DNA of 30,239 bases from a virus: the IMG/VR virus record IMGVR_UViG_3300042889_001421, positions 1 through 30,239 of that record; one strand, given 5' to 3'. The position numbers and the translations under genes were made by a program. This document shows positions 1,868 through 18,121 of the stretch, piece by piece (within the stretch, counting starts at the first letter, position 1; each line of letters begins with the position of its first letter). Below the pieces are notes generated by a model, which was not told where the DNA came from, did no database searches, and saw only the letters and a program-made list of their open reading frames with translations.

Positions 1868-1877
1868 GTGGTCCCCG
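1868..1877 (-). repeat. GTGGTCCCCG motif, copy 1
   Basis: An exact 10-mer found five times in the window, always in the same orientation relative to the leftward operon (CGGGGACCAC on the coding strand). This copy lies 5 nt past the stop codon of the 599-aa baseplate gene and 50 nt before the start of the fibre gene. Confidence 0.6.
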
Positions 1878-1882
1878 CTGCG

Positions 1883-3682
1883 CTAGCCTGCTTGATAATT
1901 GTCCTCGACGGGGATGCGGAGGCGGTCAATGAGGCTTTGGAAATCCATTCGCGGCGACGGGCCGATTTTGACTTCCGCCGCTCCGGTCGAGAGGTCGATG
2001 GACAGCTCTGAAACGGGCGCGGCCATGCTCGCCCACTCGGCAGGCGTTGTGTCCGCTGCGATGTTGAGGTAGTCGCCCGGCTCGGGAAAATCGGCGGCTT
2101 TCGGGTCAAGTGACAAGCTGCCCTTGTAGGGCGTCCAGTCTTGGCGGGCGAAGTAGTTGGTAGCGAGGTCTGCCGGGGCTGGGTTGAACTCGGCGCGGTC
2201 GATCAACGCCGAGTTACCAACGGCCGCCGTCACGGTCGAGTTCGCCTGCGTGGCCGCTGCATTCGCTTCAAGCGCGGCACGGATGATTGACGGGGCTTTG
2301 CTGAGGACGTTGACGGCTACATTAACGTAACGATAGACATAGCTGCGATAGCCAGCATTGGCTAATGACAGAGTCAGGTAATAGCCTTGAGTGTAACCAT
2401 AGATATAATTCTGAAACCCACGGGTGCCAAGTCCATCTCCGATGTATGCAATAACGTTGCCGTAAAGAGTTGCGGCGCTCTGTGTTGCACCCGCAATGGC
2501 GAGCTGTGCTGCTGTAAATGGTGACCCACTGACTAGCCAGCCTCCCACCGTGGAGTATACCGGCGGCAAGCTGACAGTTTGCTTATAGGTGCTAGAGGTC
2601 CCTAATCCAACGCCGGGGCTAGGATAAAGAGTGATTGAATAGGCAGCTTGCCAGCCAAGACTTGGATAAGCCGCCAAGGCTGAATCCTTTTGAATGACGT
2701 AGGCAAGCCAGTTGAACGTATCTGAAACCGTCGGGATTGCAGCCAGTGCTGCTTGGTAGTTTGCATTGATCTGCGCGTTAACGGCCGTCACGGCAGCATT
2801 GGCAGCGACGAGCGATGTGCTGGCGATTTCGCGGGCAATGGTCGAGGTTGAGACCGCTTCGGAAACCATCATGTCTGTCCGCTCATGGCCAGAGAGGTAA
2901 ACGCTCAACTTCCGCCGCGCTTCGGCCGTATCGTCGCCTGCCTGTTGCACGCGGTAATTGACCACTGTGTCGCCGTCGCGCTCGGCGTAAACAAACGCCA
3001 CGGAAAGCGCCCGCGCTTCGGGCCATGCCGCGAGCTGCACGGCGGTGGCGTGGTGGTTTGGGCCGTCGAGATTGATCGTCGTCAAGCTGCTGGCCGTGCG
3101 GGCATAAAACCGGAGCGTTGGCGGGCTGGTCGCGTAATCCATCCGCGTCGTCACGTCGGGTGCCCACTTGAGCGCGTCCTCTAATGCTCCGGCCAGCGAC
3201 GAGGCGCGGAAGGACATCTTGGGGACAGTAAACATCGCCGGAGTGGACGCCAGCGTCGGGGCTTGGATGGGCAGACCTTCCGCCGTGGCCGCAGCAAGGA
3301 TGGACAGCAGGCTCGTCCGCAGGTCGCCTTGGTCATAGGTGACGTAGGGGCGACCATTTGCACTCAGCAAGCTGGTTTGGGACAGGCCAAGATAGACGTT
3401 GGAAACCTCATAGGAGTAAATCCCCTGCGGGTGGGTGTAGGTGCGTTTGGCGATGCCGGTGAACAAACGCGTGCCCGTCCCGTCGTAGAGGCTGATCCAT
3501 TGCCCGTCGGCGGGAATGACCTTGCTGCGACTGCCGAGAATCTGAAACGTCAGCGTGTCGACATCCAGCGAGCGAAGCGACAGCGTCGCGTTGTAGCAGC
3601 AGAGGTCAGCCAGCGAAATCTGCACCGCATCCAGAGACTTGCCAGCCTCTCCGGCGAGGTAATAAGGGGCGGTGGGTTTCAT
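1883..3682 (-). CDS. Tail tip / baseplate hub-like protein
   Basis: 599 aa. It directly follows the tape measure gene with an ATGA overlap, the position where siphophages encode distal-tail and baseplate hub proteins. Residues 1-270 look like a hub fold (beta-rich, with SRSKVIPADGQWISLYDGTG and FTGIAKRTYTHPQGIYSYEV, resembling the first domains of gp27/gpD-type hubs; inference). Residues about 295-470 are a Tyr/Ala/Ser-rich insert encoded by DNA (about 2270-2790) visibly poorer in GC than the flanks. Residues 480-599 return to the usual composition and contain PGDYLNIAADTTPAEWASMA, a typical end domain of hub proteins. The insert looks like an acquired domain. No lytic enzyme motif is visible. 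Hub assignment rests mainly on gene order. Confidence 0.7.
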   Translation of the reverse strand: MKPTAPYYLAGEAGKSLDAVQISLADLCCYNATLSLRSLDVDTLTFQILGSRSKVIPADGQWISLYDGTGTRLFTGIAKRTYTHPQGIYSYEVSNVYLGLSQTSLLSANGRPYVTYDQGDLRTSLLSILAAATAEGLPIQAPTLASTPAMFTVPKMSFRASSLAGALEDALKWAPDVTTRMDYATSPPTLRFYARTASSLTTINLDGPNHHATAVQLAAWPEARALSVAFVYAERDGDTVVNYRVQQAGDDTAEARRKLSVYLSGHERTDMMVSEAVSTSTIAREIASTSLVAANAAVTAVNAQINANYQAALAAIPTVSDTFNWLAYVIQKDSALAAYPSLGWQAAYSITLYPSPGVGLGTSSTYKQTVSLPPVYSTVGGWLVSGSPFTAAQLAIAGATQSAATLYGNVIAYIGDGLGTRGFQNYIYGYTQGYYLTLSLANAGYRSYVYRYVNVAVNVLSKAPSIIRAALEANAAATQANSTVTAAVGNSALIDRAEFNPAPADLATNYFARQDWTPYKGSLSLDPKAADFPEPGDYLNIAADTTPAEWASMAAPVSELSIDLSTGAAEVKIGPSPRMDFQSLIDRLRIPVEDNYQAG

Positions 3683-5289
3683 CGGGCGATCGAGAACAAC
3701 TGGTTGATCTGCGACTGCTGCTGATTCACGCGGTTGTTCATCGCGGAGATGCCAGCGGTCAGATTATTGAGTGCGGAAAGGAAGGCGTCGCCCTGCTCGG
3801 AGAGTCCTTTGCCGACGTCCTGCACGGCTTTGGTGATCGCCTGTGTGTCCTGCGGGTTGGGCGTCAGCGTTTGGATCGCGGCGACCGTGCCCGTGCGCTC
3901 GCCGTCGATAACAGTTTTGACCTCGGCGGCTTTGGTGGTCGCAACCGTGGTGACGGCGCCGACTTCAACTTTGATTTGTTCGACGGCGGCGACCGGCCCT
4001 TGAGCGACGGCGTCTTTGAGCGACGCATAAACCCCGTCGAATGCTTTGGTCGCAGCGGCTGTCACCTTGAGGGATGAATCGGCCTCCTTTTCGCTCAGTT
4101 TGATCTCAACCTCGTTGAGCAATACACCGCGCTGTGCAGTGACTTTCTGGGTCGTGTCGGCAAACGCCTGTCTGGCTGATTCCGCGTCGGTATTGGCGGT
4201 ATCGACGAGTTTGGAAAGCTCGGCGATGTTCTCCGCAGTGTCGTTGGTGTTGATCGCCGTTTGATACGCCGAGAAGGCGGCATCGGCCGCTTGTTGCGCT
4301 TGGACTGCGCCCTGTTGCGCGGCTCCCAGCTCGCCGTTGAGCGCGGCGATTCCCGTTCGCAGTTGGACGGCTAGAGCGTTGGCCTCGGCCACGCCTACGT
4401 CGTATTTCTGCCTGCCTTGGAGGTCTTTTTCTCCCTCGCGTTGCTTGGCGATCTGGATCTCTTGGTTGGCCCGCTGCTGTTCGATGTTGCCCATCTCCGC
4501 CCGCAGTTGGTTGATGCGCTCGATGGTTTTGGCCTGCCGCTCCAGCTCGTCGGCCTCGCGCTGGTAGGTATCCGCCACGAATTCCCGTGTCACCTCTTCG
4601 CGCAGTTTGACCTGCTGCGTGCGCATGTATTCCAGCGCCTCTGCGTTGTCGCGGACTGCTTTGTCGCTCGCCTTAGTTGCGGCAGTCATGCCCTTGTAGG
4701 CTTCAGCCACAGCCCGCCCGCCGATGGCCAGCGCCGTGATGATCACGCTGACCGCCGTGAGTGGCGAGAGAACCGCAGACATGATCGACCCGAGGCTCAG
4801 GGTTGCGCCCTTCAGCATGGCCAACGCCCCGACCGCCTGCGGTGCCTGCTGGGACATGGCGACGAGCGCGCTAGTCCCGCCCTGCACCTGCACGGCAAAG
4901 TCGGTCACTTGATAGCCGACGTTGTTAAAAACGTGGCCGAGGTTTTTAATCTCGCCCGCCTGCGCTCCGGCTGCACGAGCGGCAACGCGGGACTTGGCCT
5001 CGACCACGTCCGCCGTCTGTTGCGCGGCTCGCGCTTCCATGTGGAGCTTGTCCACCAAGTCCTGCTCGGCCTGTTCAAGCTCGCGGGTCAGGCGGATCTG
5101 CTCCTTGCGGGCGGTGATGGCAGCGCCTGCCGTCGGGTCGTCGTATTTCACGCCCCGAGTGCGCGCATCGCGCTGCTGTTGCAGCGTTTGCTCTTCGGCC
5201 TCGACCCGCTTGATCGACTCGACCGTTTGATCAATTCCCGCGGTATCCGCCGCGGTAGTGATCTGAATTTTGATGTCGTTGTCAGCCAT
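3679..5289 (-). CDS. Tail tape measure protein
   Basis: 536 aa. Long alpha-helical protein with extensive heptad-like charged stretches (residues 20-110 and 215-480) and a central hydrophobic block (about 145-200, ALAMLKGATLSLGSIMSAVL region), the classic tape measure layout: coiled coil, membrane-active segment, coiled coil. The C-terminus has a Gln/Asn-rich coil (NNRVNQQQSQINQLF). Tape measure length sets tail length; at the usual 0.15 nm per residue this predicts a short tail of about 80 nm. It is followed with an ATGA overlap by the hub gene. The two-frame tail-assembly chaperone gene usually found just upstream is not seen; a fibre gene occupies that place. Confidence 0.88.
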   Translation of the reverse strand: MADNDIKIQITTAADTAGIDQTVESIKRVEAEEQTLQQQRDARTRGVKYDDPTAGAAITARKEQIRLTRELEQAEQDLVDKLHMEARAAQQTADVVEAKSRVAARAAGAQAGEIKNLGHVFNNVGYQVTDFAVQVQGGTSALVAMSQQAPQAVGALAMLKGATLSLGSIMSAVLSPLTAVSVIITALAIGGRAVAEAYKGMTAATKASDKAVRDNAEALEYMRTQQVKLREEVTREFVADTYQREADELERQAKTIERINQLRAEMGNIEQQRANQEIQIAKQREGEKDLQGRQKYDVGVAEANALAVQLRTGIAALNGELGAAQQGAVQAQQAADAAFSAYQTAINTNDTAENIAELSKLVDTANTDAESARQAFADTTQKVTAQRGVLLNEVEIKLSEKEADSSLKVTAAATKAFDGVYASLKDAVAQGPVAAVEQIKVEVGAVTTVATTKAAEVKTVIDGERTGTVAAIQTLTPNPQDTQAITKAVQDVGKGLSEQGDAFLSALNNLTAGISAMNNRVNQQQSQINQLFSIAR

Positions 5290-5309
5290 GAGGTCGGGGC
5301 TTTAGGAGA

Positions 5310-6137
5310 TCACAGAGCGGCAAGCATGAAGGCCAGCAGTTGCTCGTAGCGGATACCGTAAGCGTTGCCTGCGGCGAGGGCTGGTTTCGCCACTTTGCCG
5401 TCTTCATTGAGGATTTCTGGTGTTGCGTCCCACTCGTCGTAGCACAGCAGCGCATAGTCGGCGGCATCGAGTCCCTCAGCGGCGAAGGCGGCGACCACGT
5501 CCTGCGCGATGATGCCGATGTGAATGCGCGCCTTGTCACCCTTGGCGGTCACGGCGTCATTCATCTTGAAGGCTTTCAGCAGCGGCTTCAGCGAGATAGC
5601 CACGGCGGTTTCTGCCTCGGAAAGCGGGCGGATTTGTTGCTTTTGGCGGGCGTCCGAAGTGCTAATCGTAGTCGTGGCGGCGAAAAGTTGGCTCCAACGG
5701 TAGGCTGTTGTCCCGAGCGACTGTAAACCGTTTGATCCGGGGCGGATAGTGCCCCCTCCTTCCATTGTCATCCGCCAAACGCCGTCAATAGTAAAATTTA
5801 AATCATTATTAGAGTTGATGAGTTCGACGAGTTTGCCGGTTGTATCGCGAAGATTTAATTTGATCACTCCATCAGATGACATATAAAACCCGGATTGATT
5901 AACACCGTTAGTTTTAACCATGCAAAACCCCCAGCGAGCAGTAGTGCCGTCAGATGTAAAGGAGCCGGGGGAATAATAATTCGGACTGAAAACAGCTGAC
6001 GTAGATACAGCGAATGAAGTCATAGTCCCATTGCCTAGATAGACTGGGGCATAAGCATTGATATCTCCAGTCCCAATGTGGAGCAGTTGATTGTAGGTCG
6101 AGGCTGGGCTTGATCCGGTGAGGTTATTGACTGGCAT
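5310..6137 (-). CDS. Tail fibre/spike with C-terminal peptidase S74 intramolecular chaperone
   Basis: 275 aa. The C-terminal part (about 158-275) matches the S74 auto-processing chaperone of phage spikes and fibres: TSDARQKQQIRPL gives the Ser161-Asp162 cleavage position and Lys166 of the Ser/Lys dyad, followed by HIGIIAQDV and the terminal YGIRYEQLLAFMLAAL helix that ends the family. The domain trimerises the fibre and then cuts itself off before Ser161. The N-terminal 155 aa are beta-rich with no recognised enzyme motif and are encoded by AT-richer DNA (about 5740-6137) than the chaperone. Its place between tail tube and tape measure genes is unusual, since most phages put S74 fibres after the baseplate. 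It could be a side-tail fibre or a decoration on the tube. Confidence 0.88.
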   Translation of the reverse strand: MPVNNLTGSSPASTYNQLLHIGTGDINAYAPVYLGNGTMTSFAVSTSAVFSPNYYSPGSFTSDGTTARWGFCMVKTNGVNQSGFYMSSDGVIKLNLRDTTGKLVELINSNNDLNFTIDGVWRMTMEGGGTIRPGSNGLQSLGTTAYRWSQLFAATTTISTSDARQKQQIRPLSEAETAVAISLKPLLKAFKMNDAVTAKGDKARIHIGIIAQDVVAAFAAEGLDAADYALLCYDEWDATPEILNEDGKVAKPALAAGNAYGIRYEQLLAFMLAAL

Positions 6138-6157
6138 GGTTTGGTAGATTTAGAAAA

Positions 6158-6673
6158 TCAAAGGGCGTTCCAGTTGTTGGTGACGGCGTTCCAATTTTGA
6201 AGCACCCAGTCGAACCGGATGCCTTGGAAAAGGCTGATTGCGTAAACGGGCACCTTGTCGCCGGATTCAGTCCGGTAGTTGGTCATGGAGGCGAAGTTGC
6301 CGCTGAAGGCTTGGGTCGAGGAGCAGCCGAGAATCACTGCGTCGAGAAAGTCCCACGTCTCGCCCGCTTGGACGGCGATGCGCAGCTTTCCGGTCGCCAT
6401 GTAGGGAATCGACGCCGGGTGGCGCATGGCGTAGCTGGCGGCGTCCGCGTGGCTGGCGTGGCTTTTGCGCCGTCCCCATTCAACGGCGACCCTCGCGCCC
6501 CATTTCGGGATGGATACGCCATAGGTTGAGCCAATCGGCGCGTAGGCATCCGTGGAAACCGAAACGGGAAACGTCAGCGGGTTTTGCATCCTATCCCCAT
6601 AATCGAGCATCCGCACGGTGGCGCTGCCATCGTCCGGGATAAAGTCGATTTGGTGGATCGAGGAGGTCATCAA
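6158..6673 (-). CDS. Tail protein of unknown function (171 aa)
   Basis: 171 aa; MMTSSIHQIDF start, with a second ATG one codon later. Mixed alpha/beta composition, Trp/Asn-rich C-terminus (DWVLQNWNAVTNNWNAL). It lies 3 nt after the upstream tail gene, within the block between tail tube and tape measure. By position it could be a tail completion or minor tail protein; I do not recognise the family. It occupies the place where tail assembly chaperones usually sit, but no slippery sequence or overlapping second frame is evident. Confidence 0.7.
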   Translation of the reverse strand: MMTSSIHQIDFIPDDGSATVRMLDYGDRMQNPLTFPVSVSTDAYAPIGSTYGVSIPKWGARVAVEWGRRKSHASHADAASYAMRHPASIPYMATGKLRIAVQAGETWDFLDAVILGCSSTQAFSGNFASMTNYRTESGDKVPVYAISLFQGIRFDWVLQNWNAVTNNWNAL

Positions 6674-6676
6674 CCA

Positions 6677-7120
6677 TTAGGGAACGAAGACCACGGCCGG
6701 AGCCGAGACTGTGGGCGGAGTGTAACTAGTCACAACAAAGTCCGGAAGATCAGCCCCGCCAACGCCGACGGTTGGACTGCCAACTCCGGTCGTGATCGTC
6801 CAAGCCGTGAGTCCTGCCGGGTACTGAGCCAGAGATGCCTTGGTTGCCAAATAAGTCGTCCCCATTTTCAGACGCCAAGACGTCCCATCATGAGACATGA
6901 TGATGTTGGTTAGACTGTCAGTTTGCGTGCCGTCCGTGGAAAAAGCCACCTTGCCTGCGCTCCATCCTGCAAAATACAACATTCCGTTCACGCCTGCTGT
7001 TGTGACTCCCGAGATGGAGCATCTAATCGCATTTTGATCCGTGCCGTTGAATATCAACTGTGGCGGGCTCTCGGAAAAATTAGTCTGCGGCGTGTAAATT
7101 GAAATGGGTGCGGATGGCAT
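6677..7120 (-). CDS. Structural protein of unknown function (147 aa), beta-rich
   Basis: 147 aa. Rich in Thr, Ser, Gly and Val with short hydrophobic strands and a Pro-rich C-terminal tail (PPTVSAPAVVFVP), like a small virion decoration or fibre-tip protein. The central stretch (YFAGWSAGKVAFSTDGTQTD) resembles part of the neighbouring S74 fibre (shared WG/TDGT style), so it could be a partner or a fragmentary fibre shaft. It directly follows the hairpin after the tail tube gene. Function is not recognised; virion location is inferred from position. Confidence 0.65.
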   Translation of the reverse strand: MPSAPISIYTPQTNFSESPPQLIFNGTDQNAIRCSISGVTTAGVNGMLYFAGWSAGKVAFSTDGTQTDSLTNIIMSHDGTSWRLKMGTTYLATKASLAQYPAGLTAWTITTGVGSPTVGVGGADLPDFVVTSYTPPTVSAPAVVFVP

Positions 7121-7156
7121 GGGTGGGAATCAGTGAAGGGTGACGGGAAGGATCAA

Positions 7157-7187
7157 GCCGGGGCAGAGGGTTGGACTCTGCCCCGGC
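7157..7187 (-). terminator. Perfect 12-bp GC-rich hairpin after the tail tube gene
   Basis: GCCGGGGCAGAG (7157-7168), a 7-nt loop, and its exact reverse complement (7176-7187). It begins 11 nt after the stop of the tail tube gene in the direction of transcription. Only a weak U-rich tail follows on the minus strand (TTGATCCTT), so it may act as a partial terminator or as an mRNA 3'-end stabiliser rather than a full stop. Confidence 0.7.
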
Positions 7188-7198
7188 AACGATCAAAA

Positions 7199-7753: not shown

Positions 7754-7786
7754 AATTTAATGAGTTGGATGTTGGAGGTGAGAGGA

Positions 7787-7993: not shown

Positions 7994-7995
7994 GG

Positions 7996-8424: not shown

Positions 8425-8427
8425 GGT

Positions 8428-8862
8428 TTAGAAATTGAGAAGGGTTGAGCCGCCGCTGACGGTGGTGGCCTCGGTGGATTCTGGGATGGTTCCGGCAGCG
8501 TCTTCGATCCGCACGTCACCCTTGGCAACGGCGTCGAGGAAATCGTGAGCCTTGCGCAGCTCTTCTTTGCGGGTTTCGGTCGATCCCTCGGACAGTGGCA
8601 GCGAGCCGACGAGCGCATCACGGGCGATGGTGCAGGCGGCGAATAGGCATTCATCCGGGATGGTTCCGGCCGCGCCGAGTTTGACGAGGTTTTCACGGTT
8701 GGAGGCGACCTTGCCGCGCACCATGGCCGTGACTTGCAGAATGATCTCGGCGAGCGTATCCACGCCGTCCGAGGCTTGATCCCCCGCGTCCACGTAGCTC
8801 TCCAGCTCGTCTTTCGCGAGACGGCCTTTGATGTTGCTAGCGGTGAGGGTGATCCAAGACAT
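8428..8862 (-). CDS. DUF1320 / Mu gp36-like head-tail connector
   Basis: 144 aa. Begins MSWITLTASNIKGRLAKDEL, the usual opening of DUF1320 proteins (a short start then a helix that follows 'L...D...L'), followed by helices DTLAEIILQVTAMVRGKV and PDECLFAACTIARDALVGSL; this helical bundle is the adaptor fold that docks under the portal. It follows the capsid gene, as in Mu-like head modules. The C-terminal 25 residues are disordered Thr/Ser/Gly-rich. Transcription reaches it after passing a hairpin at 8879-8910. Confidence 0.75.
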   Translation of the reverse strand: MSWITLTASNIKGRLAKDELESYVDAGDQASDGVDTLAEIILQVTAMVRGKVASNRENLVKLGAAGTIPDECLFAACTIARDALVGSLPLSEGSTETRKEELRKAHDFLDAVAKGDVRIEDAAGTIPESTEATTVSGGSTLLNF

Positions 8863-8878
8863 GAGAGGGAAAAGAGAA

Positions 8879-8910
8879 CGGCCCCACCCGCGTTGATACG
8901 AGCGGGGCCG
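8879..8910 (-). terminator. Terminator-like hairpin after the major capsid gene
   Basis: CGGCCCC (8879-8885) pairs with GGGGCCG (8904-8910). On the minus strand the hairpin is followed by TTCTCTTTTCC, a U-rich tract. It lies 24 nt past the capsid stop codon and before the connector gene, fitting a partial terminator that keeps capsid mRNA in excess over downstream genes. Confidence 0.7.
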
Positions 8911-8933
8911 AGCTTGGGGTTTTAGAGCAGCGA

Positions 8934-9851
8934 TTAGCTGAGGGTCAGGGCGAAACGAGCAGCGGCCGATGCGTTATTCACATAGGCGGCTTCGGTCCAT
9001 TCCGTGATGATCTTCTCGCCGAAATCCTTCTGGATTGCGCGAACGCCACCGAATGGGTTGGCGGAGACGCGGAAGGTTTTGAAGGCGGAAGCGTCGAACT
9101 GGTTGGCGTTGTCCGCTGCGAAGTAGATCCAGATTTCTGGGAGGGTCGCGTCGGTCAAGGCGTTGTTCTTCGTGCTGGTCGTGCGGGCCGGGGTGTCGAA
9201 GGTCGCGGTGGAAACCATGCACTGGGTGTTAGGATTCAAGAACAGCGAGCCGACGTCTTGGATCATCGGCGAAACCTTCGACGCGTTCGGGTAGCGCGAG
9301 ATGGTTTTGCTGTTGTTCTTGAAGTAGCTCCAAGCAGCGAGGGAGAACACAACGCGGTTCGGGATCACGCCGAGGTTCTTGGCGAGGGCTTCCATCTGCG
9401 CGTCGATTTCTGCCACTGGGTCGGTGGACGAGGACCAGCTTTTCGCAGTAGCGGAAACGCCCGTGCGGAGAACCGAGAGGGTTTCGCTCAGGCGGCTGTT
9501 ACCGGCTTGTGAAACGAGGTTGCGAACGCGAGCTTCGCGCAGCATCCGGGAACCTTCGCCCGTGGTGGCAAGGTCGAGTTCGTGGTTGTCGATGATGTCG
9601 TGGAGCGCGTAAGGAGCCAGCGAGATGCTGATGCGCTCGCCGTCCGTGATGACTGCGGTGGAGTCGCCGCCGATTGCGCGTTTTGCGCTTGGCACTTGGA
9701 GGCCGGATCGTTTGGCGTAGTCGAGGATCGAGAACGACGCGGCACCCGTCTGAACGACAGGAGCAAGGAAGTCAGCGAGCGGGCTTGCGGTTTCTTGGAA
9801 CAGTCCTTTGGCGAACTGGTTCAGAGTGGAGATGTTAGCGGGAGTGGCCAT
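8934..9851 (-). CDS. Major capsid protein
   Basis: 305 aa, in the size range of HK97-fold capsid proteins. It opens MATPANISTLNQFAKGLFQE, has a long region with FLAPVVQTGAASFSILDYAK (N-arm and start of the E-loop-like part), an Arg/Glu-rich helix (RMLREARVRNLVSQAG), a P-domain stretch with VVFSLAAWSYFKNN, and a C-terminal strand region (ADNANQFDASAFKTFRVS, EWTEAAYVNNASAAARFALTLS). It follows the protease/scaffold and decoration genes, the standard order for Mu-like heads, and is followed by a hairpin. No separate N-terminal delta domain is present, consistent with a scaffold encoded by the upstream protease gene. Confidence 0.85.
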   Translation of the reverse strand: MATPANISTLNQFAKGLFQETASPLADFLAPVVQTGAASFSILDYAKRSGLQVPSAKRAIGGDSTAVITDGERISISLAPYALHDIIDNHELDLATTGEGSRMLREARVRNLVSQAGNSRLSETLSVLRTGVSATAKSWSSSTDPVAEIDAQMEALAKNLGVIPNRVVFSLAAWSYFKNNSKTISRYPNASKVSPMIQDVGSLFLNPNTQCMVSTATFDTPARTTSTKNNALTDATLPEIWIYFAADNANQFDASAFKTFRVSANPFGGVRAIQKDFGEKIITEWTEAAYVNNASAAARFALTLS

Positions 9852-9887
9852 GGTGGTAGGTCAGTTGATGGATTGAGGATGGTCGAA

Positions 9888-10265: not shown

Positions 10266-10288
10266 GGTGGTATTTCTTAGAGTTGGAT

Positions 10289-10822
10289 TTAGTTAGCGAA
10301 AGCGGATGGATCAATTTCGGAGGCGCGATCCCAGACGCGGGAGAACGTGGCGGATTCGCCGAGTTCCGTGCGGGCCTTGACCTGCGCGGCTTCGATGCGG
10401 GCGACGAGAGATTCGGGGCGGGCTTGGCCTGCTTCGATGATCGGTTGGTCGAGGCCGTCGTGCTGTTTGACGAGGCCAGCAAGCACCGTCTGCACAAAGG
10501 TTTCGCCGGATGCCAGTTCGGCAGCGATGCGCGAGCAATAGGCGTCGTGGGTGGCGTCGTCTTTGGGTGCAAGGCGACCGTCAGCAACGGCGGCTTCGAC
10601 GAGTCCCTTGGCGCGTTCTTCACGGGCAGCGGAGGCTTCAGCGACGGCAGCTTCCTTCTCGCCCTTGAGTTCGGCGAGTTCGGCTTCCAACTCGGCGATG
10701 CGAGCAGCTTTTTCGGTGTCGCTGAGGGTCATTTCAACGACGCGGTCGGCGGCGAGTTTTTCAGCATCGGGCAGGGCGGCTTCAGCAGCGGAAAGCAGGC
10801 CGCAAGTGGCGAGGATTAACAT
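10289..10822 (-). CDS. Possible internal-start scaffold protein nested in the protease gene
   Basis: An in-frame ATG at 10822 would produce a 177-aa protein (MLILATCGLLSAAEAALPDA start) consisting of the coiled-coil scaffold region only. Nested scaffold genes are known for lambda (Nu3 in C) and Mu (Z in I). The start follows a Thr/Pro/Ser-rich linker, a domain boundary. No clear Shine-Dalgarno is visible in front, so this is inferred from the architecture. Confidence 0.4.
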   Translation of the reverse strand: MLILATCGLLSAAEAALPDAEKLAADRVVEMTLSDTEKAARIAELEAELAELKGEKEAAVAEASAAREERAKGLVEAAVADGRLAPKDDATHDAYCSRIAAELASGETFVQTVLAGLVKQHDGLDQPIIEAGQARPESLVARIEAAQVKARTELGESATFSRVWDRASEIDPSAFAN

Positions 10823-11341
10823 TTTGTGGGTAGTTGGTGTGGAGTTCGTCCCCGCGTCACTTGCGGCGATGCGCTCAATCTCTCGGAAAGCTGGCTCGTT
10901 GACTAATGCTCCGAGTGGTCCCCGTTCTGGCAGTCCTGCCGGGCTGTGATCGTCGGCCAGATCGAAGCGCGGCGAGAAGTAAGCGAAGTCACGCCCCTCG
11001 ATGGCGGCAGCACCTGCGCCGGACCAATCGACCGAGCAAAGAAGACCGCGCCCGGCTTCATATCGAAAGCCTGTTGGGTATCCCGAAGTGGGGCCATCGG
11101 CCTCGTGTTTGAAATCGAGACGCGGCTTGATGTTGCCCTTAGCGAGTCGCTCCAGGTCAAATTGAAATGCAGCCGCGATGGTGTCGCCCTTGTCGGCGTC
11201 CATCTTGACGAGGATTCCATTCGGGTGGCTCTGCGGATAGATCAAGCTATCGCCCTCGGGGATGTAGACGATTTCCGACGGCAGACCCTTGGCGGGCAGC
11301 GCGGAGGCAAGGGCGATGACAAGACGATTCACGCCTCGCAT
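10289..11341 (-). CDS. Mu gpI-like head maturation protease with C-terminal scaffold
   Basis: 350 aa. Residues 1-150 look like the Mu I-type prohead protease: LDFKHEADGPTSG (73-86) and GRDFAYFSPRFDL (116-128) are typical family landmarks. Residues about 195-245 are an Ala/Glu/Lys-rich coiled coil (ARIAELEAELAELKGEK), the scaffold part, and the C-terminus (AFAN end) would bind the capsid protein. An in-frame Met174 (ATG at 10822) follows a Pro/Thr-rich linker and would give a 177-aa scaffold-only product, as in lambda C/Nu3 and Mu I/Z. It follows the minor head gene after a 49-bp gap that holds a GTGGTCCCCG motif, and a second motif copy lies inside, at codons 140-143, shortly before the linker. 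The protease is expected to cleave scaffold and itself during head maturation. Confidence 0.8.
   Translation of the reverse strand: MRGVNRLVIALASALPAKGLPSEIVYIPEGDSLIYPQSHPNGILVKMDADKGDTIAAAFQFDLERLAKGNIKPRLDFKHEADGPTSGYPTGFRYEAGRGLLCSVDWSGAGAAAIEGRDFAYFSPRFDLADDHSPAGLPERGPLGALVNEPAFREIERIAASDAGTNSTPTTHKMLILATCGLLSAAEAALPDAEKLAADRVVEMTLSDTEKAARIAELEAELAELKGEKEAAVAEASAAREERAKGLVEAAVADGRLAPKDDATHDAYCSRIAAELASGETFVQTVLAGLVKQHDGLDQPIIEAGQARPESLVARIEAAQVKARTELGESATFSRVWDRASEIDPSAFAN
10915..10924 (-). repeat. GTGGTCCCCG motif, copy 2 (inside the protease/scaffold gene)
   Basis: This is the one copy deep inside a coding region (codons 140-143, Glu-Arg-Gly-Pro-Leu). It lies 93 nt upstream of the possible internal scaffold start. 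The flanks match copies 3 and 4 (CGAGTGGTCCCCG), showing similarity beyond the 10-mer. Confidence 0.6.
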
Positions 11342-11377
11342 TGCACGACCGATCCACGCCCGATGCTATCTGTCGGA

Positions 11378-11387
11378 GTGGTCCCCG
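11378..11387 (-). repeat. GTGGTCCCCG motif, copy 3
   Basis: It begins 3 nt after the TAG stop of the minor head gene, in the 49-bp gap before the protease gene. On the coding strand the context GGAGCGGGGACCACTCC is nearly self-complementary (seven-base arms with one mismatch around a GGA loop). Confidence 0.6.
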
Positions 11388-11390
11388 CTC

Positions 11391-12419
11391 CTATCCGTTA
11401 GACTGCGGGAAAAGAATCGAATCGCCGCCATCCGTGACGGGCAATCCTTGAGACGGAGCAAGCCGCTCGTTGAGGTCTGAGATGGCTTTGCGGTATTTCT
11501 CAGCCTTGCCCACCTTGCCGCTGAGAATGGCATCTTGCAGCCCTTCATTGAGTTGAGCGGCGCGCACCTTGGCGACAGCTTCGCGGGCCGCTTCCTGCGG
11601 GCTGCGCGGCTTCGGGGCGGCTTGCAGCTCGGCAATGAGCGCGGCCTTGATGTCCGGGTCCATGTTGCGGACGGACGCCCATAAATCATCGTTGAACTTA
11701 GGCGCGGGAGCAACCTCGGCGGGCTTGTCGCCCATGAGCCCCAGCTGTGCGGCCTCTTCCTTTGAAACGTCCTCTTGGGTCACGCCCGAGTGAAAGCCAT
11801 ATGGGCCCCATGGCACGCCAAATCCGCCAATATCTTTGGCATTGTGAAACTCGGCCCAGCGCGGATCGGTCTTGAGCAGGACTTCGCCCAGATTCTCCTG
11901 GTGGCGCGGGCGTGGCTCGTTGACGCCCCGAACTCGGACTAGCCGCGCGGCAGGAAATGTCTGGATGGTGGCAGGAGTCATTCCCTGCTTCCACTGGCCG
12001 TAGCCGTATGCCTGGCGGATGTTGGTGTCAAAAATCAGCCGCAGCCGCGCTTCGCTCTTGATGTCGGTGACGTCCTTTTGGTCCGTGTCGAAAAAATCCT
12101 GCCGAGTCGCCATGCCCTCAGCCACCATGAACTCGCGCATTTTCTTTACGAAATGATCACGGTTGAAGACACTCAACGCCTCGGATTTCACCCCGGCTGG
12201 ATTGGTCACAGTCTCCTTGACTCCGGCGATGTAGTCGAAAAGCAGCGAGTGCGCACGGTCGAGGAAGCGGGCGTTTTCAACTCGGGCAGAGAAGAAGGCG
12301 CGGCTGCGGAATTCCGGCTCATGCGTCGCCCAGCCTGCCGAATCCCACTCGGCGGGGAGTTGCTCCTTGTCGGCGAGAAAGCCGATAGCTTCCTTGAATG
12401 GCATGGGTTCGTCGATCAT
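11391..12419 (-). CDS. MuF-type minor head (head morphogenesis) protein
   Basis: 342 aa. The N-terminal part (MPFKEAIGFLADKEQLPAEW) matches the opening of Mu gpF-like proteins with their 'F.eAi.fl..K' signature. The central region has the family core: RLIFDTNIRQAYGYGQW, then ArgValArg-x-ValAsnGluProArgProArgHis and DPRWAEFH...GFGVPWGPYGFHSG. Residues 235-342 are an Ala/Glu-rich extension probably unique to this phage group. MuF proteins sit at the portal/capsid interface and are a few copies per head. Starts with an ATGA overlap on the gpG-like gene. The order portal, gpG, MuF differs from Mu (portal, MuF, gpG). Confidence 0.8.
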   Translation of the reverse strand: MIDEPMPFKEAIGFLADKEQLPAEWDSAGWATHEPEFRSRAFFSARVENARFLDRAHSLLFDYIAGVKETVTNPAGVKSEALSVFNRDHFVKKMREFMVAEGMATRQDFFDTDQKDVTDIKSEARLRLIFDTNIRQAYGYGQWKQGMTPATIQTFPAARLVRVRGVNEPRPRHQENLGEVLLKTDPRWAEFHNAKDIGGFGVPWGPYGFHSGVTQEDVSKEEAAQLGLMGDKPAEVAPAPKFNDDLWASVRNMDPDIKAALIAELQAAPKPRSPQEAAREAVAKVRAAQLNEGLQDAILSGKVGKAEKYRKAISDLNERLAPSQGLPVTDGGDSILFPQSNG

Positions 12420-13018
12420 GATTGAAGGATTTCCAGCAAGCCCCGACGATAGCGGTTCATGAACGCGTCGGCAATGAGATCATTGGGCGGCAGCGCACCG
12501 GGCCACGGCTGGTGCGTCACGCTCTTGACCAGGGCGTAAACTGCCCGCAGTCCCCCGTCGTCTTTGGTCTCAAACAGCGCGCGTTTGCCCTTGATCGTGA
12601 AAAGGTTTTTCTGGGCGAAAACCTCGTAGTTGGCAGCGGAGCGACCTCGCGCCTCGGCAATCATCGGGATGGTCAGATACTTCGTCCGCTTCGGCTTGAC
12701 CGTGCCGCCCGTCGATTTGAATTTAAGAAAACGGGCGTTGTTCGCGATCGTCGCACCGCGCTCGTCGGAGCTCTGGAAGCTCCACGCTTCCGACACTTCC
12801 GATCCATAGCTGCTGCCGTCGCTGGCTGATCCAAGGTAGCGCTTGCCCCTCCATCCGCCCGACTTGTCGAAATTGCGGTGATAGGTGACAGCGGCGTTGA
12901 CCGCCTCGCGGCCGCCTTGCTCGTTGAGTTGGGCGCTTTGGCTGCCCCGCAGCGCGGCGATAGCCCGCTTGAGCATCGGGCTCGCGCCGTCGGTGACCTC
13001 GACCTTGATTTGGATCAT
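12416..13018 (-). CDS. Phage virion morphogenesis protein (Mu gpG-like)
   Basis: 200 aa. Opening MIQIKVEVTDGASPMLKRAI, then the Arg/Asn/His motif region (YHRNFDKSGGWRGKRY) and an Asn-Asn-Ala-Arg-Phe-Leu-Lys-Phe segment followed by TKYLTIPMIAEARG are characteristic of the phage virion morphogenesis/tail completion family, in which this 'Y..H...G......I.N.a.YA..q..G' layout is common. Overlaps the portal stop by ATGA. Role: head completion or head-tail joining; not a catalytic protein. Confidence 0.7.
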   Translation of the reverse strand: MIQIKVEVTDGASPMLKRAIAALRGSQSAQLNEQGGREAVNAAVTYHRNFDKSGGWRGKRYLGSASDGSSYGSEVSEAWSFQSSDERGATIANNARFLKFKSTGGTVKPKRTKYLTIPMIAEARGRSAANYEVFAQKNLFTIKGKRALFETKDDGGLRAVYALVKSVTHQPWPGALPPNDLIADAFMNRYRRGLLEILQS

Positions 13019-14736
13019 GACTTAAAGCGTTGCGTGCTGCCCGCAAGGGCTGCGCTGCCGATAGCCTCTTTAAAGGCGGTTTGTAAAGTCTCGGTGTCGA
13101 GCGTATCGAACAACTCGGGCAGTTGCTTCTGCGCTTTTTCCAGCGCGGCGAGGAAATCCGCGTCGCTCACGTTCTTGGCCATCGCCAGCGCGGCGAGCCG
13201 GTCGAACATCGGACGCACTGGGGCCAGCCATTCGCGGGCAACGCCCGTCAGACCCTCAAGCACGGCGCTGGATAGTTGCTCGACGTCTGACAGTTTCGCA
13301 GGTTGATCCGCAGCGGCGGCGGTGACTGGTGATAGGTTCACGCGCCCCTTTGTTTCATGAGGTAGAACAACAACTCCCGACGCAGGATCTCCCTGCGCAC
13401 CATCCGGCGACGCGTGAAAAATTTTCTCTCCATCGGCTGGCAGCGGCACACCGAGGTCTTCGTAAACGAATGCTTCCGACATCGGAAGCTTGAGGCGGGC
13501 GAGAATCTCCATTCGTTCGGCCTTGGCCTTGGAGTCGGATGCTTCCTCTCGGCGCACCCACATTTCCGGCAAGTCCTCGCGTCCTTCGCCCCAGTTGTGC
13601 GCGACGATCGCCGGGATGAGTTGGCGCGAAAGCACTTCGCCCACGAAATCCGCAATGCCATCAACCACGGTGTCGAGCGTGTCCGCATGGACTTCGCCGA
13701 GTGCACGGCTCCCCTGGTTAGCGGTGCCGCTGGTCAGGGTTTGACCGAGAATGAACTTGTCGCACTGCTCGTCGGCAAGGTCGATCAATACCTTCTGCGG
13801 CAGTTGATCACCCCCCTTGGCCGCGTCGAGCACGTTGATTTTGGTGCCCGTCTTCGTGACGATGTAGCCATTGGCCCCGATGCTGTTCAATGCGGCCTCG
13901 ACGCTGCGCTGGTCCTTAGAATCCGCCACCTCGGCGTGACGCCACGGGATACCGTAAATCTGGGTGAAGCTCATCAACCACTTGAGGCCGTAGCTACTCG
14001 CCAGCCAGTAGCCAGTGAGCGCCCGCAGCGGTGCGCCAACGAGCGGGTGGCCCGTGTGGCCGGAGTTGACCGCCACTAGGAAACGGTGCGCCGGAAAGTC
14101 TTGCATAGCGTAGCTGCTGCCGCTGCCGGAGGCGTCCAGCATGAGGCGGTCGGATGTCGCTTCGTAAGTCGGGTAGCCGTAGTAACGGGCAGGCAGTTGC
14201 TTGGTGCAACGCGGCCTCCATGTCTTGTCCTTGTCCTGCGTCCAGTGGATTTCCGAGACAGCGTGTCCGTAGTAATAGCCGAAAACGATATTGCGGATGG
14301 TGGCTTCCAGTCCGTTCTCGCCACGGTCCGAGGCCGAGCGCATCCTCCAAATGACGTCTTCGATCTCTGCCGCCATTTGCTCCGCTTGTGGGTCGGGGTT
14401 TTCTCCGCGCTTGGCATAGGGCACGACCTTCCATGGCGAACAGATGACGCGACGGGCGATCTCGTTGAGGTTCTTCTGCAAGCGCGGCCATGTGTCGAGC
14501 ATCGCGTTGAAGAGCATCGCTTGCATCCGCAGATCGCCGCCCCAAGCCGAGGACAAGGTTGCCCGCACGTCGCTCGGCAACTGGTCGCGCTCGAAAAAGT
14601 CCAGCGTCCGCTCCTGCGGCGCGGGTTGAATCATCGGTGAATCATCGCGCTCAATGGTGCGAAGGGTCGCTGCCGCAGCGAGGGTATCACGGCGGGGTGG
14701 CAGGGCGGAGCCGATCGGTTTAAAGTTGGTTTTCAT
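13015..14736 (-). CDS. Portal protein, DUF935/Mu gp29-like
   Basis: 573 aa from ATG 14736 (an in-frame TTG two codons earlier is less likely). Family landmarks in order: LSSAWGGDLRMQAMLFNAMLDT..., IARRVICSPWKVVPY, IVFGYYYGHAVSEIHW, PLVGAPLRALTGYWLASSYGLKWLMSFTQIYGIPWR, ILGQTLTSGTANQGSRALGEVH and FVGEVLSRQLIPAIVAHNWG. These match DUF935 portal proteins. It forms the dodecameric DNA-entry ring and binds the terminase. The C-terminal 120 aa, with LSDVEQLSSAVLEGL and a helical end, may reach inside the head. Follows the lysis cassette with a 23-nt gap and overlaps the gpG-like gene by ATGA. Confidence 0.9.
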   Translation of the reverse strand: MKTNFKPIGSALPPRRDTLAAAATLRTIERDDSPMIQPAPQERTLDFFERDQLPSDVRATLSSAWGGDLRMQAMLFNAMLDTWPRLQKNLNEIARRVICSPWKVVPYAKRGENPDPQAEQMAAEIEDVIWRMRSASDRGENGLEATIRNIVFGYYYGHAVSEIHWTQDKDKTWRPRCTKQLPARYYGYPTYEATSDRLMLDASGSGSSYAMQDFPAHRFLVAVNSGHTGHPLVGAPLRALTGYWLASSYGLKWLMSFTQIYGIPWRHAEVADSKDQRSVEAALNSIGANGYIVTKTGTKINVLDAAKGGDQLPQKVLIDLADEQCDKFILGQTLTSGTANQGSRALGEVHADTLDTVVDGIADFVGEVLSRQLIPAIVAHNWGEGREDLPEMWVRREEASDSKAKAERMEILARLKLPMSEAFVYEDLGVPLPADGEKIFHASPDGAQGDPASGVVVLPHETKGRVNLSPVTAAAADQPAKLSDVEQLSSAVLEGLTGVAREWLAPVRPMFDRLAALAMAKNVSDADFLAALEKAQKQLPELFDTLDTETLQTAFKEAIGSAALAGSTQRFKS

Positions 14737-14759
14737 GGTCAAAATAAAGTTCTAACGGT

Positions 14760-14981
14760 TCATCGCGGCCGCCACAGGCAGGAGTTGATGCCACAGCCCT
14801 TGCTCATCCGGGCGACGTCCTCTTGCAGCTTTTCAATGACGACCGTCTGGGTAGCGATGATCTTGTCCTGGGCGGCCAATCTTGATTTCATAAAGCCCCA
14901 CATGATGCCTGCGAGAGTGGCGATGGCCCCGGAGAGGGTGCCGATGGTGGCGAGAATCCACGCGATGGGTAATTCGATCAT
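14760..14981 (-). CDS. Small single-pass membrane protein with coiled coil (holin or i-spanin-like)
   Basis: 73 aa. One N-terminal transmembrane segment (residues 6-30, AWILATIGTLSGAIATLAGIMWGF), then a cytoplasmic/periplasmic coiled coil (RLAAQDKIIATQTVVIEKLQEDV) ending with a Cys-containing basic tail. Its neighbour upstream is a peptidoglycan-acting enzyme and before that another small membrane protein, so this is part of the lysis cassette. The layout suits an inner-membrane spanin subunit or a pinholin-like protein. No separate outer-membrane lipoprotein partner is visible nearby. Confidence 0.6.
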   Translation of the reverse strand: MIELPIAWILATIGTLSGAIATLAGIMWGFMKSRLAAQDKIIATQTVVIEKLQEDVARMSKGCGINSCLWRPR

Positions 14982-14991
14982 GGTGAAAAAG

Positions 14992-15582
14992 TCAGTTGAT
15001 AGGTCCTTCGACGAGGATCAGCGGGAAAGTTTTCTGGCTGGCCAACTCCAGCGCAGCGGCAAGCTGGCCGTAATACGAGGGCCACTGCTCTCGCGGGACG
15101 GTCACGCAGCCCTCAGAGGACGTGCCGTTGACCCCTCCGCGATGATTGTTGATGCCGAAGCAGCCCGTCTCTTCATTATGCACGGTGCCGTCGGCTTTCA
15201 TGCGCTGGACGGTCACGGGTGAATTGCCCTGTCCGAATGCCATGTAACCAGTTGGGCGGCTCGGGTGGTGTTTCAGTCGGCGGAATTCCCAGCATCCGGT
15301 CTTGAGCCGGGCCATGAATTTCTGCGCACCCTCGTTCCATCCGAAGCGGCTCGGATCGACGTTACCATTGTAGGCTGAGAAGCCGCAGGGGCTGACGATG
15401 AAGAACGCGTCGTCGTAGATCGAGACGTCATTGTAGCCGACCTTGCCCATGCTGTCGCGGTAGTAGCCGCGCACTGCCAGCACATAGACGCTTGGCAACG
15501 CTTTGCCGTAAGCCGCCAAGGCGGTTGCCGTGACCAGCGCCCTTGACGCTTTCGGTTTTGATGGGGGGACGATGGCGCTCAT
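14992..15582 (-). CDS. Endolysin candidate with YkuD-like (L,D-transpeptidase type) catalytic site
   Basis: 196 aa from ATG 15582. The C-terminal half carries ...GINNHRGG...TSSEGCVTVP, which fits the active-site pattern H...G....S.GC of L,D-transpeptidase (YkuD) folds, with Cys as nucleophile and His as base. The earlier segment GYNDVSIYDDAFF...AYNGNVDPSRFGW gives the family's N-terminal strands. A related protein type is found in lysis cassettes of many phages and is thought to act on peptidoglycan. It lies between two small membrane proteins and after terminase. No signal peptide is visible, so a holin-type export route is needed. It may hydrolyse or modify cross-links instead of making them; the reaction is inferred. 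Confidence 0.65.
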   Translation of the reverse strand: MSAIVPPSKPKASRALVTATALAAYGKALPSVYVLAVRGYYRDSMGKVGYNDVSIYDDAFFIVSPCGFSAYNGNVDPSRFGWNEGAQKFMARLKTGCWEFRRLKHHPSRPTGYMAFGQGNSPVTVQRMKADGTVHNEETGCFGINNHRGGVNGTSSEGCVTVPREQWPSYYGQLAAALELASQKTFPLILVEGPIN

Positions 15583-15595
15583 GACCTGGAACAAG

Positions 15596-15778
15596 TCAGA
15601 ACTTGATCGAGTCCTGCGCATGGATCAGCGCCCAGCCCGTCGTGACGGTCGGCACTAGCTCCGTGAGGTTGCAGGTTCCAGTCTTGAGGTAGGACGCGAC
15701 AGCATTGCCGAGGGCGAGGAGGATAGTCAGGATTCCGAGCGAGGTAGTCTTCACGTGGGCAACGTGCGCCGATTCCAC
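15596..15778 (-). CDS. Small membrane protein, holin-like (60 aa)
   Basis: 60 aa. A central hydrophobic helix (TSLGILTILLALGNAVASYL) followed by LVPTVTTGWALIHAQDS, which looks like a second short hydrophobic segment; this two-segment small protein ending in 'GWALIhAqDs' is common next to phage endolysins, where it is often annotated as a holin. Lies directly after TerL and 13 nt before the endolysin candidate. Function inferred from size, hydrophobicity and neighbours. Confidence 0.65.
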   Translation of the reverse strand: MESAHVAHVKTTSLGILTILLALGNAVASYLKTGTCNLTELVPTVTTGWALIHAQDSIKF

Positions 15779-15798
15779 AGGCGATGGAATCGCTTCGA

Positions 15799-15808
15799 GT
15801 GGTCCCCG
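15799..15808 (-). repeat. GTGGTCCCCG motif, copy 4
   Basis: It begins 2 nt past the TerL stop codon, in the 32-bp gap before the first lysis gene. Plus-strand context TTCGAGTGGTCCCCGCTTC is closest to copies 2 and 3. Confidence 0.6.
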
Positions 15809-15810
15809 CT

Positions 15811-17199
15811 TCAGAACCGGACGAAGCTCCCCGCGAAATCATTGCCGCCGCTGGTGCTGGACAGGATTGACCGCTCGGAAACGGCGCCTGTCATCCGAGA
15901 CCCGCACATGATCGCCCCGACGTAGGCGTCCGCGCGGTCGGGTGATTTGATTCCCCGCGCCCGCATATCGTCCTTGCTCTCGATCCGCAGCCGCCCCTTG
16001 GCGTCCCACTCCAGCCGCCGCGTCGTTAGCTGCTCGAAGAGTCCCGGATCAAACTTCTCGCGCGGTCCGAGGTGGATTCTGCCGCGCTCGATGTCGCGGC
16101 TCGCCTCGATCCAGCATTCGGAAATCAGGTTTGCATAGTTCAGCGGATCGCTAGCCGGAAAACCGCCGTGGAATTCGTTCACCCGGAACCCCTCTTCCGC
16201 GAAGTCCTTGATGATCACGTTGCCGATCCCGTCCGCATCGCCGAAGACTTGACCAGGGTAAAGTTGCAGTTGCCGGAAAGACTCGCGGAAATCCCGCCGG
16301 GCCTGCGTCGTATTGACGTCGCGCCAGAACGCGTGCAGGCGGATCACGTTGCCGTGACGGTGTGCCAGCGTGTTTTCATCGCCGCCCGCTGCAAAGTCGC
16401 AGAACGCCACCTTTTCGCCGCTGGCGTCGGCCTCGGGTTGGATCGTGAACGCCTTCTCCAATGCTTCCGGCGTCAGGATCACCCGGCCGTCGAGGCTGGT
16501 GAATTCCGCCAAGTGCATCGACCGGTAGAGCGGGGAATCCTCGCCGAGCTCCAGCTTGTCGCGCTCGCGCTTCACCGGCGAGATGTGCGGGCATTCCAGC
16601 GAAGTCACCCGCCGCGTCCAGTAGAGCCCCGAGAGCTTGAAGAATGCCGAGTGGAACTTTCCCGATGGTGCGCCCGGCGACGAGGTCCACAGCTGATAGG
16701 CGACGGTGCAGCGCTGGAATGCCCCAAAGATTTCGTCCGGCACGCCCTTGGCTTCGTCGATGATGATGAAGACGGGGTCGACCTCGGGTCCATAGGTCGG
16801 GTGCCAGCCTTCCGCCTTGTCGGCATTGTTGGTCGAAAACCCGATCGCCTCCCCGCCCTCAAGGGTGATCACCTTGACCGGCGAACTGCCGCTGGTGATC
16901 CGCCAGCCGTAAGGCTTGGCAAAGCGCTCGATCGCGGGCCACAACTGGTTTTGCAACTGGTTCCACGATCCCGAGGTGATGACCACCTTTCCTCGCGGGT
17001 AGCGGTTCAAAAACCAAGTCACCGCCGGGCCGATGATGGCCGCCGTTTTGCCGCTTCCGTTGGCCGCGCATACTGCCGTCGGTTGGCCGCCGTGCTTCTG
17101 GTAGCCAATCGAGCGCAGACACTCGGTCTGCCAGTCGTAAAGGTCCATTCCTAGATTCCGCCACGCGAAATAGGCCGGACAGTCGCCAAGCGGGATCAT
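15811..17199 (-). CDS. terL: Terminase large subunit
   Basis: 462 aa from ATG 17199, which overlaps the TerS stop by ATGA. ATPase part: Walker A AANGSGKT (45-52), Walker B FIIIDEAKG (144-152), coupling motif LWTSSPG (170-176). Nuclease part: Asp268 (VAFCDFAAGGDEN), Asp321/Asp323 (VFGDADGIG) and Asp421/Asp424 (SPDRADAYVGA), the RNase H-like acidic triad. The order of domains and spacing are standard. It cuts concatemeric phage DNA and pumps it into the prohead through the portal. The upstream neighbour is TerS; downstream is the lysis cassette, so the packaging and lysis genes are coupled before the head genes. Confidence 0.93.
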   Translation of the reverse strand: MIPLGDCPAYFAWRNLGMDLYDWQTECLRSIGYQKHGGQPTAVCAANGSGKTAAIIGPAVTWFLNRYPRGKVVITSGSWNQLQNQLWPAIERFAKPYGWRITSGSSPVKVITLEGGEAIGFSTNNADKAEGWHPTYGPEVDPVFIIIDEAKGVPDEIFGAFQRCTVAYQLWTSSPGAPSGKFHSAFFKLSGLYWTRRVTSLECPHISPVKRERDKLELGEDSPLYRSMHLAEFTSLDGRVILTPEALEKAFTIQPEADASGEKVAFCDFAAGGDENTLAHRHGNVIRLHAFWRDVNTTQARRDFRESFRQLQLYPGQVFGDADGIGNVIIKDFAEEGFRVNEFHGGFPASDPLNYANLISECWIEASRDIERGRIHLGPREKFDPGLFEQLTTRRLEWDAKGRLRIESKDDMRARGIKSPDRADAYVGAIMCGSRMTGAVSERSILSSTSGGNDFAGSFVRF

Positions 17200-17744
17200 G
17201 GCATCGGTGGCCGTGCCGCCTGATCCGCCTTCGCCAGCATGAGGGCAAAAGCCGCCTCTTCTTCCGCCGTGCGCTTGGCCTCCGTCACCGACTGGATCGG
17301 GCCGCCGTCCGGTCCGCTGATCTCCTGGGTGATCTTGTCGCCGTAGCGTTTCGGGTCCCACTTCGCCAGCAGCTTGAGCCGCGTCTCCACCGCCAGTTTA
17401 ACTGCCATCACCCGCGCCCCCGCCTCGCCGGTGCCTGGCATTCCATGGGCGTGATTCATGGCCCCGTCGGAAAGTTCCAAGGCTGTTGCCGCGATCCGAT
17501 CAAACCCCGCCTCCCTCGCGCGCGCGATGGCACTGGAAAGTTCGTGGTCTGTATTCATCCAGCATCTAACGGCGTCGCAGTTCGGCATCTTCGCGTCATC
17601 GCACAGAAGCGTTAGCGGGGTGCCATTCGCCAGCCCCTCCAGAATCCGCTTCACGACCGCCGGGTTGCGCTTCGTGGGCCGACCGATCTTCTTGGCGGCT
17701 GCCTTCTTCTTCGGTCCACCCGCTTTGATCGAAACTCGTTTCAT
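17196..17744 (-). CDS. terS: Terminase small subunit
   Basis: 182 aa from ATG 17744; an in-frame TTG at 17780 (12 codons earlier) would give a TTGA overlap with the preceding gene like most junctions in this operon, so the start is open. GGAGGT directly abuts the ATG, too close for a normal ribosome site. The N-terminus is very Lys-rich (GGPKKKAAAKKIGRPTKRNP), then a helix-turn-helix-like segment (AVVKRILEGLANGTPLTLLCDD..MPNCDAVRCWMNTD), typical of TerS DNA-binding domains, an Arg-rich oligomerisation helix and a C-terminal Ala/Glu helix. Recognises the pac/cos site and hands DNA to TerL, whose gene overlaps it. Confidence 0.82.
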   Translation of the reverse strand: MKRVSIKAGGPKKKAAAKKIGRPTKRNPAVVKRILEGLANGTPLTLLCDDAKMPNCDAVRCWMNTDHELSSAIARAREAGFDRIAATALELSDGAMNHAHGMPGTGEAGARVMAVKLAVETRLKLLAKWDPKRYGDKITQEISGPDGGPIQSVTEAKRTAEEEAAFALMLAKADQAARPPMP

Positions 17745-17776
17745 ACCTCCGAATCTTCCGCGCGCGCGACCCCTCG

Positions 17777-18121
17777 TCAATCGTGGGTGGTGGTCCCCGT
17801 GATGACCTCAACGTCGGCAATAGTGCAACCGTTAATGATCTGCGCCTTGGTCAGCGCCTCCAGCACGGTGTCGCGCCGTTGTTGCGCCTCCTCGGAGTCC
17901 CTCGTTCGCAAACTGACAACGACCCGCTCGCCAACGTATTTCGGGCCACGGTCGACGGTGAATCGCAACTGGTAAAGCCCGCTCCGCTTCCGGCGTAGGT
18001 GGTGGTTTTTGTCTCCCGGATTGGCCGCCGAGCATTCAAGCGTCATGCGGAAACCCAGCGGGAGGAGTGATTGGACGGAGTTCATGTAGGTATAGGCTAT
18101 AAAATCAAACGTTTGTTTCAA
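17777..18121 (-). CDS. Small protein of unknown function (114 aa)
   Basis: 114 aa with a TTG start overlapping the upstream stop by TTGA; a fallback ATG lies at 18085 (102 aa). Arg/Lys-rich with a strand-rich core (GLYQLRFTVDRGPKYVGERVVVSLRTRDSEEA) and an acidic C-terminal part; a helix (EEAQQRRDTVLEALTKA) follows. The core resembles a small beta-domain with one long helix, but I do not recognise the family. A GTGGTCCCCG motif copy lies in its last codons. Placed just before TerS, so it could belong to packaging or be a late switch gene; this is inferred only from location. Confidence 0.6.
   Translation of the reverse strand: MKQTFDFIAYTYMNSVQSLLPLGFRMTLECSAANPGDKNHHLRRKRSGLYQLRFTVDRGPKYVGERVVVSLRTRDSEEAQQRRDTVLEALTKAQIINGCTIADVEVITGTTTHD
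17790..17799 (-). repeat. GTGGTCCCCG motif, copy 5
   Basis: It lies in the last codons of the 114-aa gene (Thr-Gly-Thr-Thr), 46 nt before the TerS ATG. The flanks are less conserved than in copies 2-4. Confidence 0.55.

Follow-up and report, generated by a model that had tools for sequence, protein, structure and literature searches.

A recurrent ten-letter element as the probable activator box of late promoters in a group of phages seen almost exclusively in metagenomes, with a candidate regulator in the last early gene

The ten-letter sequence GTGGTCCCCG that recurs in this 30.2-kb viral record (the window, meaning here the whole stretch of DNA analysed) probably serves a family of phage late promoters as their activator box, located at about -53 to -44, and the activator reading it would be the product of the last early gene. 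Exact copies of the element are located at 1868, 10915, 11378, 15799 and 17790 (n = 5), all on the plus strand; with 0.15 copies expected by chance and five or more reached in 0 of 100 dinucleotide shuffles, the same-orientation copies reported in the initial annotation are real. The element reads CGGGGACCAC(TC) on the minus, coding strand, and since all late genes of the window lie on this strand (Table 1), the functional reading is CGGGGACCAC. Three copies had been placed just past stop codons, as is the case for the genes at 1883, 11391 and 15811, and the placement of one copy over the last codons of a gene (within the 17777-18121 ORF) and of another inside the protease gene was also confirmed. 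A feature absent from that annotation is the near-constant distance of 52-54 nt from the box to the next start codon.

Table 1. Genes and predicted late promoters of the window.
Feature	Position	Strand	Start and remarks
Tail/fibre gene	267-1817	-	ATG 1817; served by the fibre promoter
Fibre promoter	box 1868-1876; -35 TCGCCG 1853-1858; -10 CTAAAT 1830-1835	-	ATG 1817
Major capsid	8934-9851	-	
Head maturation protease	10289-11332	-	GTG 11332
Nested in-frame scaffold-like gene	10289-10822	-	ATG 10822, 48 nt past predicted RNA start
Protease-internal promoter	box 10915-10923; -35 TAGTCA 10900-10905; -10 GAGATT 10877-10882	-	predicted RNA start 10870
Protease promoter	box 11378-11386; -35 TAGCAT 11363-11368; -10 TGCAAT 11340-11345	-	GTG 11332
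Minor head	11391-12419	-	
Portal	13015-14742	-	
Holin-like ORF, 52 aa	15596-15754	-	GTG 15754; function guessed from hydrophobic start and position
Lysis-module promoter	box 15799-15807; -35 TTCCAT 15784-15789; -10 CACGTT 15761-15766	-	GTG 15754
Large terminase	15811-17361	-	
Small terminase subunit	17196-17744	-	ATG 17744, 53 nt past box reference base
Terminase promoter	box GGGGACCAC 17790-17798; -35 TTGACG 17775-17780; -10 AAGATT 17752-17757	-	predicted RNA start 17744-17745
Candidate late activator, 89 aa	17777-18046	-	ATG 18046; frame open to 18121; weak DUF6538/Arm-like domain

The anatomy of the promoters was derived from 55 sense sites with dissimilar flanks, picked by the box alone; this set keeps orthologous sites of diverged phages, and of the protease-internal copies just one was taken out by the filter intended to exclude them. 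With column 0 set at the second G of GGGGACCAC and column 52 taken as +1, the conserved columns are 17 (T, 39/55; -35), 19 (G, 45/55; -33), 38 (G, 33/55; -14), 41 (A, 33/55; -11) and 45 (T, 37/55; -7), as in sigma70 promoters whose spacer is 17 bp, T.G falling in the -35, the next G in the extended -10 and A...T in the -10. The T-35/G-33 and A-11/T-7 bases stand at sigma70 spacing past the box with p values from 1e-9 to 2e-17; taken together, the 55 sites agree with sigma70-type -35/-10 hexamers about 17 bp apart. The box itself occupies -53 to -44 and is centred near -49, giving the formula CGGGGACCACTC - N7 - T.G-type -35 - 17 bp - G..A...T extended -10 - 6 nt - ATG/GTG. The box, the -35/-10-like columns and the start spacing are direct observations on the sequences, as are the box variants within genomes and the joint occurrence with the regulator gene described below, and a role of the element as the upstream box of a promoter family is strongly supported by sequence. 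Within the window, the -35 of the terminase promoter includes the TGA that ends the upstream gene. The weakest promoter is that of the fibre gene, where the start codon falls at column 58, about 6 nt past the predicted RNA start; -10 bases are weak in this promoter and in some others.

An ATG or GTG is found at columns 52-54 in 37 of the 55 sites, and at 36 of those 37 it begins a frame of at least 40 aa. The RNA start was placed from the distance to the start codon, its exact position being a prediction, and most late mRNAs are presumably leaderless, with start codons at or no more than 2 nt from that position in these 37 sites; with leaderless transcripts, start codons come to lie at a fixed distance from the promoter bases. 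Phage transcripts have often been described as leaderless (PMC5312081), so this part of the proposal is not unusual in itself. No clear, normally spaced Shine-Dalgarno sequence was found at any gene start of the window, and its absence is therefore unusable as extra evidence for leaderless starts. As a separate observation, this absence across the window may hint at the host.

Two further kinds of repeat are present in the window. Three near-identical palindromes, GTAACGCT..AGCGTTAC, lie at 20479-20520 and 20697-20715, a count reached in 0 of 100 shuffles, within an ORF (20132-20863, minus strand) that adjoins a DnaC-like helicase loader gene; they are possibly iterons of a replication origin within an initiator gene, as in lambda O. 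The 8-mer CAGCCTCT is repeated in tandem about eleven times at 27115-27208, flanked by a repressor-like gene at 26215-27072 and by an integrase-like ORF at 27307-28482; this is a possible phase-variable or regulatory repeat.

The comparison with related phages that had been proposed was carried out on contigs fetched through terminase, portal or capsid similarity, and the element is kept before the same late genes in approximately 25 related viral contigs, a count that overstates independence because several are close kin (G000/G001/G008-G010; G014-G016; G018-G021; G022/G023). Across these contigs, 99 sense copies stand against 10 antisense copies. Orthologous genes in different phages are preceded by the box at one constant offset, including the small terminase, a small holin-like gene, the portal, the protease, the homologue of 8428-8862, the tape-measure gene and tail genes. 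In contigs L061, L063 and L068, the gene for a protein beginning V.WIT lies, box included, on the strand opposite the other late genes; here the promoter has travelled along with its gene. Judged by terminase, the named phages closest to the window are those of Akkermansia, at 40-45% identity, and in them no repeated 7-9-mer at the proper distance exceeded control distances. Two scans in which terminase and capsid were searched against GTDB contigs returned a single MAG contig, labelled Porticoccaceae, the binning of which may be wrong; a link to Verrucomicrobia would have the 40-45% terminase identity to Akkermansia phages as its sole basis.

Variants of the box within whole genomes are also observed. 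In two lineages nearly all sites have GGGGGCCA(C/T) in place of the usual box; the A and G variants are GGGGACCAC and GGGGGCCAC. G011 and G012 (capsid 75% identical) are without GGGACCAC, and their late-gene sites read GGGGGCCACT, which precedes the portal, the protease and the 8428-8862 homologue, among others; one scored site of G012 (28812, GGGGACAAC) is a misfit to the variant rule. The 68-kb contig G004 (IMGVR_UViG_3300046001_005260) contains two related phage genomes or prophages, one with GGGGACC and the other with GGGGGCCA(T/C), each with its own copy of the candidate regulator gene beside it. Such genome-wide shifts are expected if one protein reads all sites, as in a regulator-operator pair. 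Two positions of the regulator are His in both GCC-type regulators, from two GCC lineages, and in none of the ACC-type regulators, a lead for residues that may determine specificity.

The candidate regulator gene, 17777-18121 at its full open frame, is the sole early ORF of the window with homologues throughout the set, and a regulator gene is observed in 17/17 box-carrying contigs of at least 22 kb. It is the last early gene, directly before the terminase in the window and several relatives and farther from it in others, and encodes a small, basic product, likely of 89 aa from the ATG at 18046, with the core HHL....G.Y.LRVTVDRGPK.VGERV...LRT.D..EA..RRD. Of 12 members, seven match DUF6538 weakly (best E 6e-4) and one matches Arm-DNA-bind_3 weakly, all below the Pfam cut-off, and none has a DUF6538 or integrase Arm match above the curated cut-off. 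DUF6538, which we take to be an integrase N-terminal domain, is named in no paper found in the open literature searched. Two AlphaFold models, of moderate confidence (mean pLDDT 63-66), predict three strands plus one helix, and fold searches with both returned nothing significant; the better-superposed hits, likewise not significant (probability ~0.6, TM ~0.4), were T. gondii mitoribosome chains. This ribosome includes AP2-domain proteins (PMC11652630, PMC11742926), and the matched chains are not necessarily those. Among longer homologues, those of G026 and G031 have an N-terminal HTH that passes the Pfam cut-off, and in G012 the score falls just short of it; the longer G016 homologue has no Pfam match for an HTH. 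Searches of the regulator against GenBank phages and PDB sequences gave no match.

Searching in both directions connects promoter and protein. A composite pattern of the box, T.G, A...T and ATG was scanned against 2.9 million viral contigs and matched four, all of this group (G026, G028, and the new G030 and G031), indicating that the promoter pattern is specific; G030 and G031 have two pattern hits each, the same late gene order, and an encoded regulator. The regulator alone, used as query, retrieved the new L105 with a full promoter set and the new L108 without one, where the homologue has 42% identity; the box was looked for in L108/G029 and not found. As the scans may omit records very near the window, the numbers fall short of a census.

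The copy at 10915 lies within the protease coding sequence, where it encodes RGPL. In phages with GGGGACC boxes the internal Gly codon is always GGA and the Pro codon always CCA while adjacent codons vary, and in the second prophage of G004, with GGGGGCC boxes, the Gly codon in the protease gene is GGG. The predicted RNA start of the internal copy lies 42-51 nt upstream of an in-frame ATG in all tested phages having the copy, and the Met of this nested start, preceded by a variable linker, is found in all aligned protease homologues, with or without the internal box. The internal copy is likely to be a promoter driving a nested scaffold gene, one that some lineages acquired or lost. In lambda-type nested protease/scaffold genes, an in-frame internal start yields a scaffold-like C-terminal product. 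The arrangement here is alike in this respect, but many lineages of this group carry a late-promoter box within the protease gene, upstream of the nested start.

In the mechanism proposed, the last early gene, 17777-18046 on the minus strand, would be transcribed early, and its small phage protein would attach to the box, immediately before the -35, and bring in host RNA polymerase carrying the main sigma factor. Several late modules would then be switched on in parallel, which in the window means terminase, lysis, protease, nested scaffold and fibres and in relatives also the portal, head-tail and tape-measure genes. Most of the resulting mRNAs would be leaderless, and the protease-internal promoter would give a leader of approximately 48 nt before the nested scaffold-like gene.

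Of the three roles offered in the initial annotation, binding of a late regulator is the one favoured here, the element being specified as a putative -53 to -44 box in late promoters of sigma70 type, with a candidate gene for the regulator. The main rival, which we consider unlikely, accepts the late promoters and has the box read by another protein (a phage regulator, a host factor or an alternative sigma factor), with 17777-18046 as a bystander. Conserved neighbour genes can co-occur without a role in binding, the domain matches of the candidate are weak, and L108 has a homologue where the box was not found; however, no further early gene is common to the whole set, both contigs found through the promoter encode the regulator, and the two G004 prophages, within one contig, differ in box and regulator alike.

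An element acting in RNA, as a leader-processing, antitermination or translation-enhancing site at a defined spacing from the start codon, is considerably less probable. No RNA structure common to the sites emerged (the consensus was empty and the mean single-site z was 0.15), with which an unstructured RNA site would still be compatible, and while transcribed sites just past stops, at fixed distance from the start codons of genes without Shine-Dalgarno sequences, would suit this reading, it explains neither the tie of the box to -35/-10-like bases, with -35/-14/-11/-7 spacing of the columns between box and start, nor the different distance of the internal copy from its start. A recombination or module-exchange boundary is highly improbable and was rejected on the grounds of fixed spacing and variable flanks: the window copies do lie at module borders, as a by-product of promoters standing between modules, yet one is within the protease gene, the flanks are non-homologous and vary outside the promoter bases, and the fixed start distance and genome-wide box variants would be left unexplained. 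A chance repeat or base-composition artefact has equally little to commend it; antisense copies do occur in the GC-rich relatives G005 and G028, but this reading is already contradicted by the 0.15 copies expected, the 10:1 strand bias, the fixed start distance, and the presence of the element on the late-gene strand in relatives at 46% GC.

With the box as an activator site of late promoters, the group, known almost only from metagenomes, offers a sequence-defined late regulon, a candidate regulator and natural operator variants, making late-gene control, leaderless translation and regulator-operator co-evolution directly testable. No description of this pair of promoter and regulator was found in the open papers and databases searched, a search outside which subscription papers and preprints lie. 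That it represents a new class of late switch is a more tentative proposal, possible but somewhat short of probable: a stand-alone integrase-Arm/AP2-like beta-sheet protein, HTH-fused in some relatives, would bind GGGGACCAC ahead of the -35 and drive many parallel, largely leaderless late transcripts, with an internal promoter for the nested scaffold and two operator variants reflecting two specificities.

Among known systems, late-gene control by P2 Ogr and P4 Delta works like the proposed mechanism: a short element lying ahead of sigma70 promoters lets a small phage protein activate several late operons. Ogr is a zinc protein with a CX2CX22CX4C motif, and the P2 element is TGT-N12-ACA (PMC3931495); in contrast, the 89-aa sequence of the window lacks CX2CX22CX4C, and the conserved block here is GGGGACCACTC, with no TGT-N12-ACA dyad among the conserved columns. 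Mor and C of phage Mu are alike as phage activators bound beside or over the -35 that work with host sigma70 polymerase, such binding being proposed here. The target of Mor is a pair of 5-bp inverted repeats with its centre at -43.5, taking the place of the -35 (PMC4390567), whereas the present box is centred near -49, has no spaced repeat and keeps -35-like bases; the likeness is limited to box position, and Pfam and PHROGs scans gave no Mor/C family match for the regulator. To integrase Arm, DUF6538 and AP2-type domains the regulator is alike in its weak profile matches and predicted layout of three strands plus a helix, but it stands alone or is fused to an HTH, without a recombinase domain, and its proposed role is late activation; if true, a DNA-binding domain type related to the recombinase Arm would join the known kinds of phage late activators.
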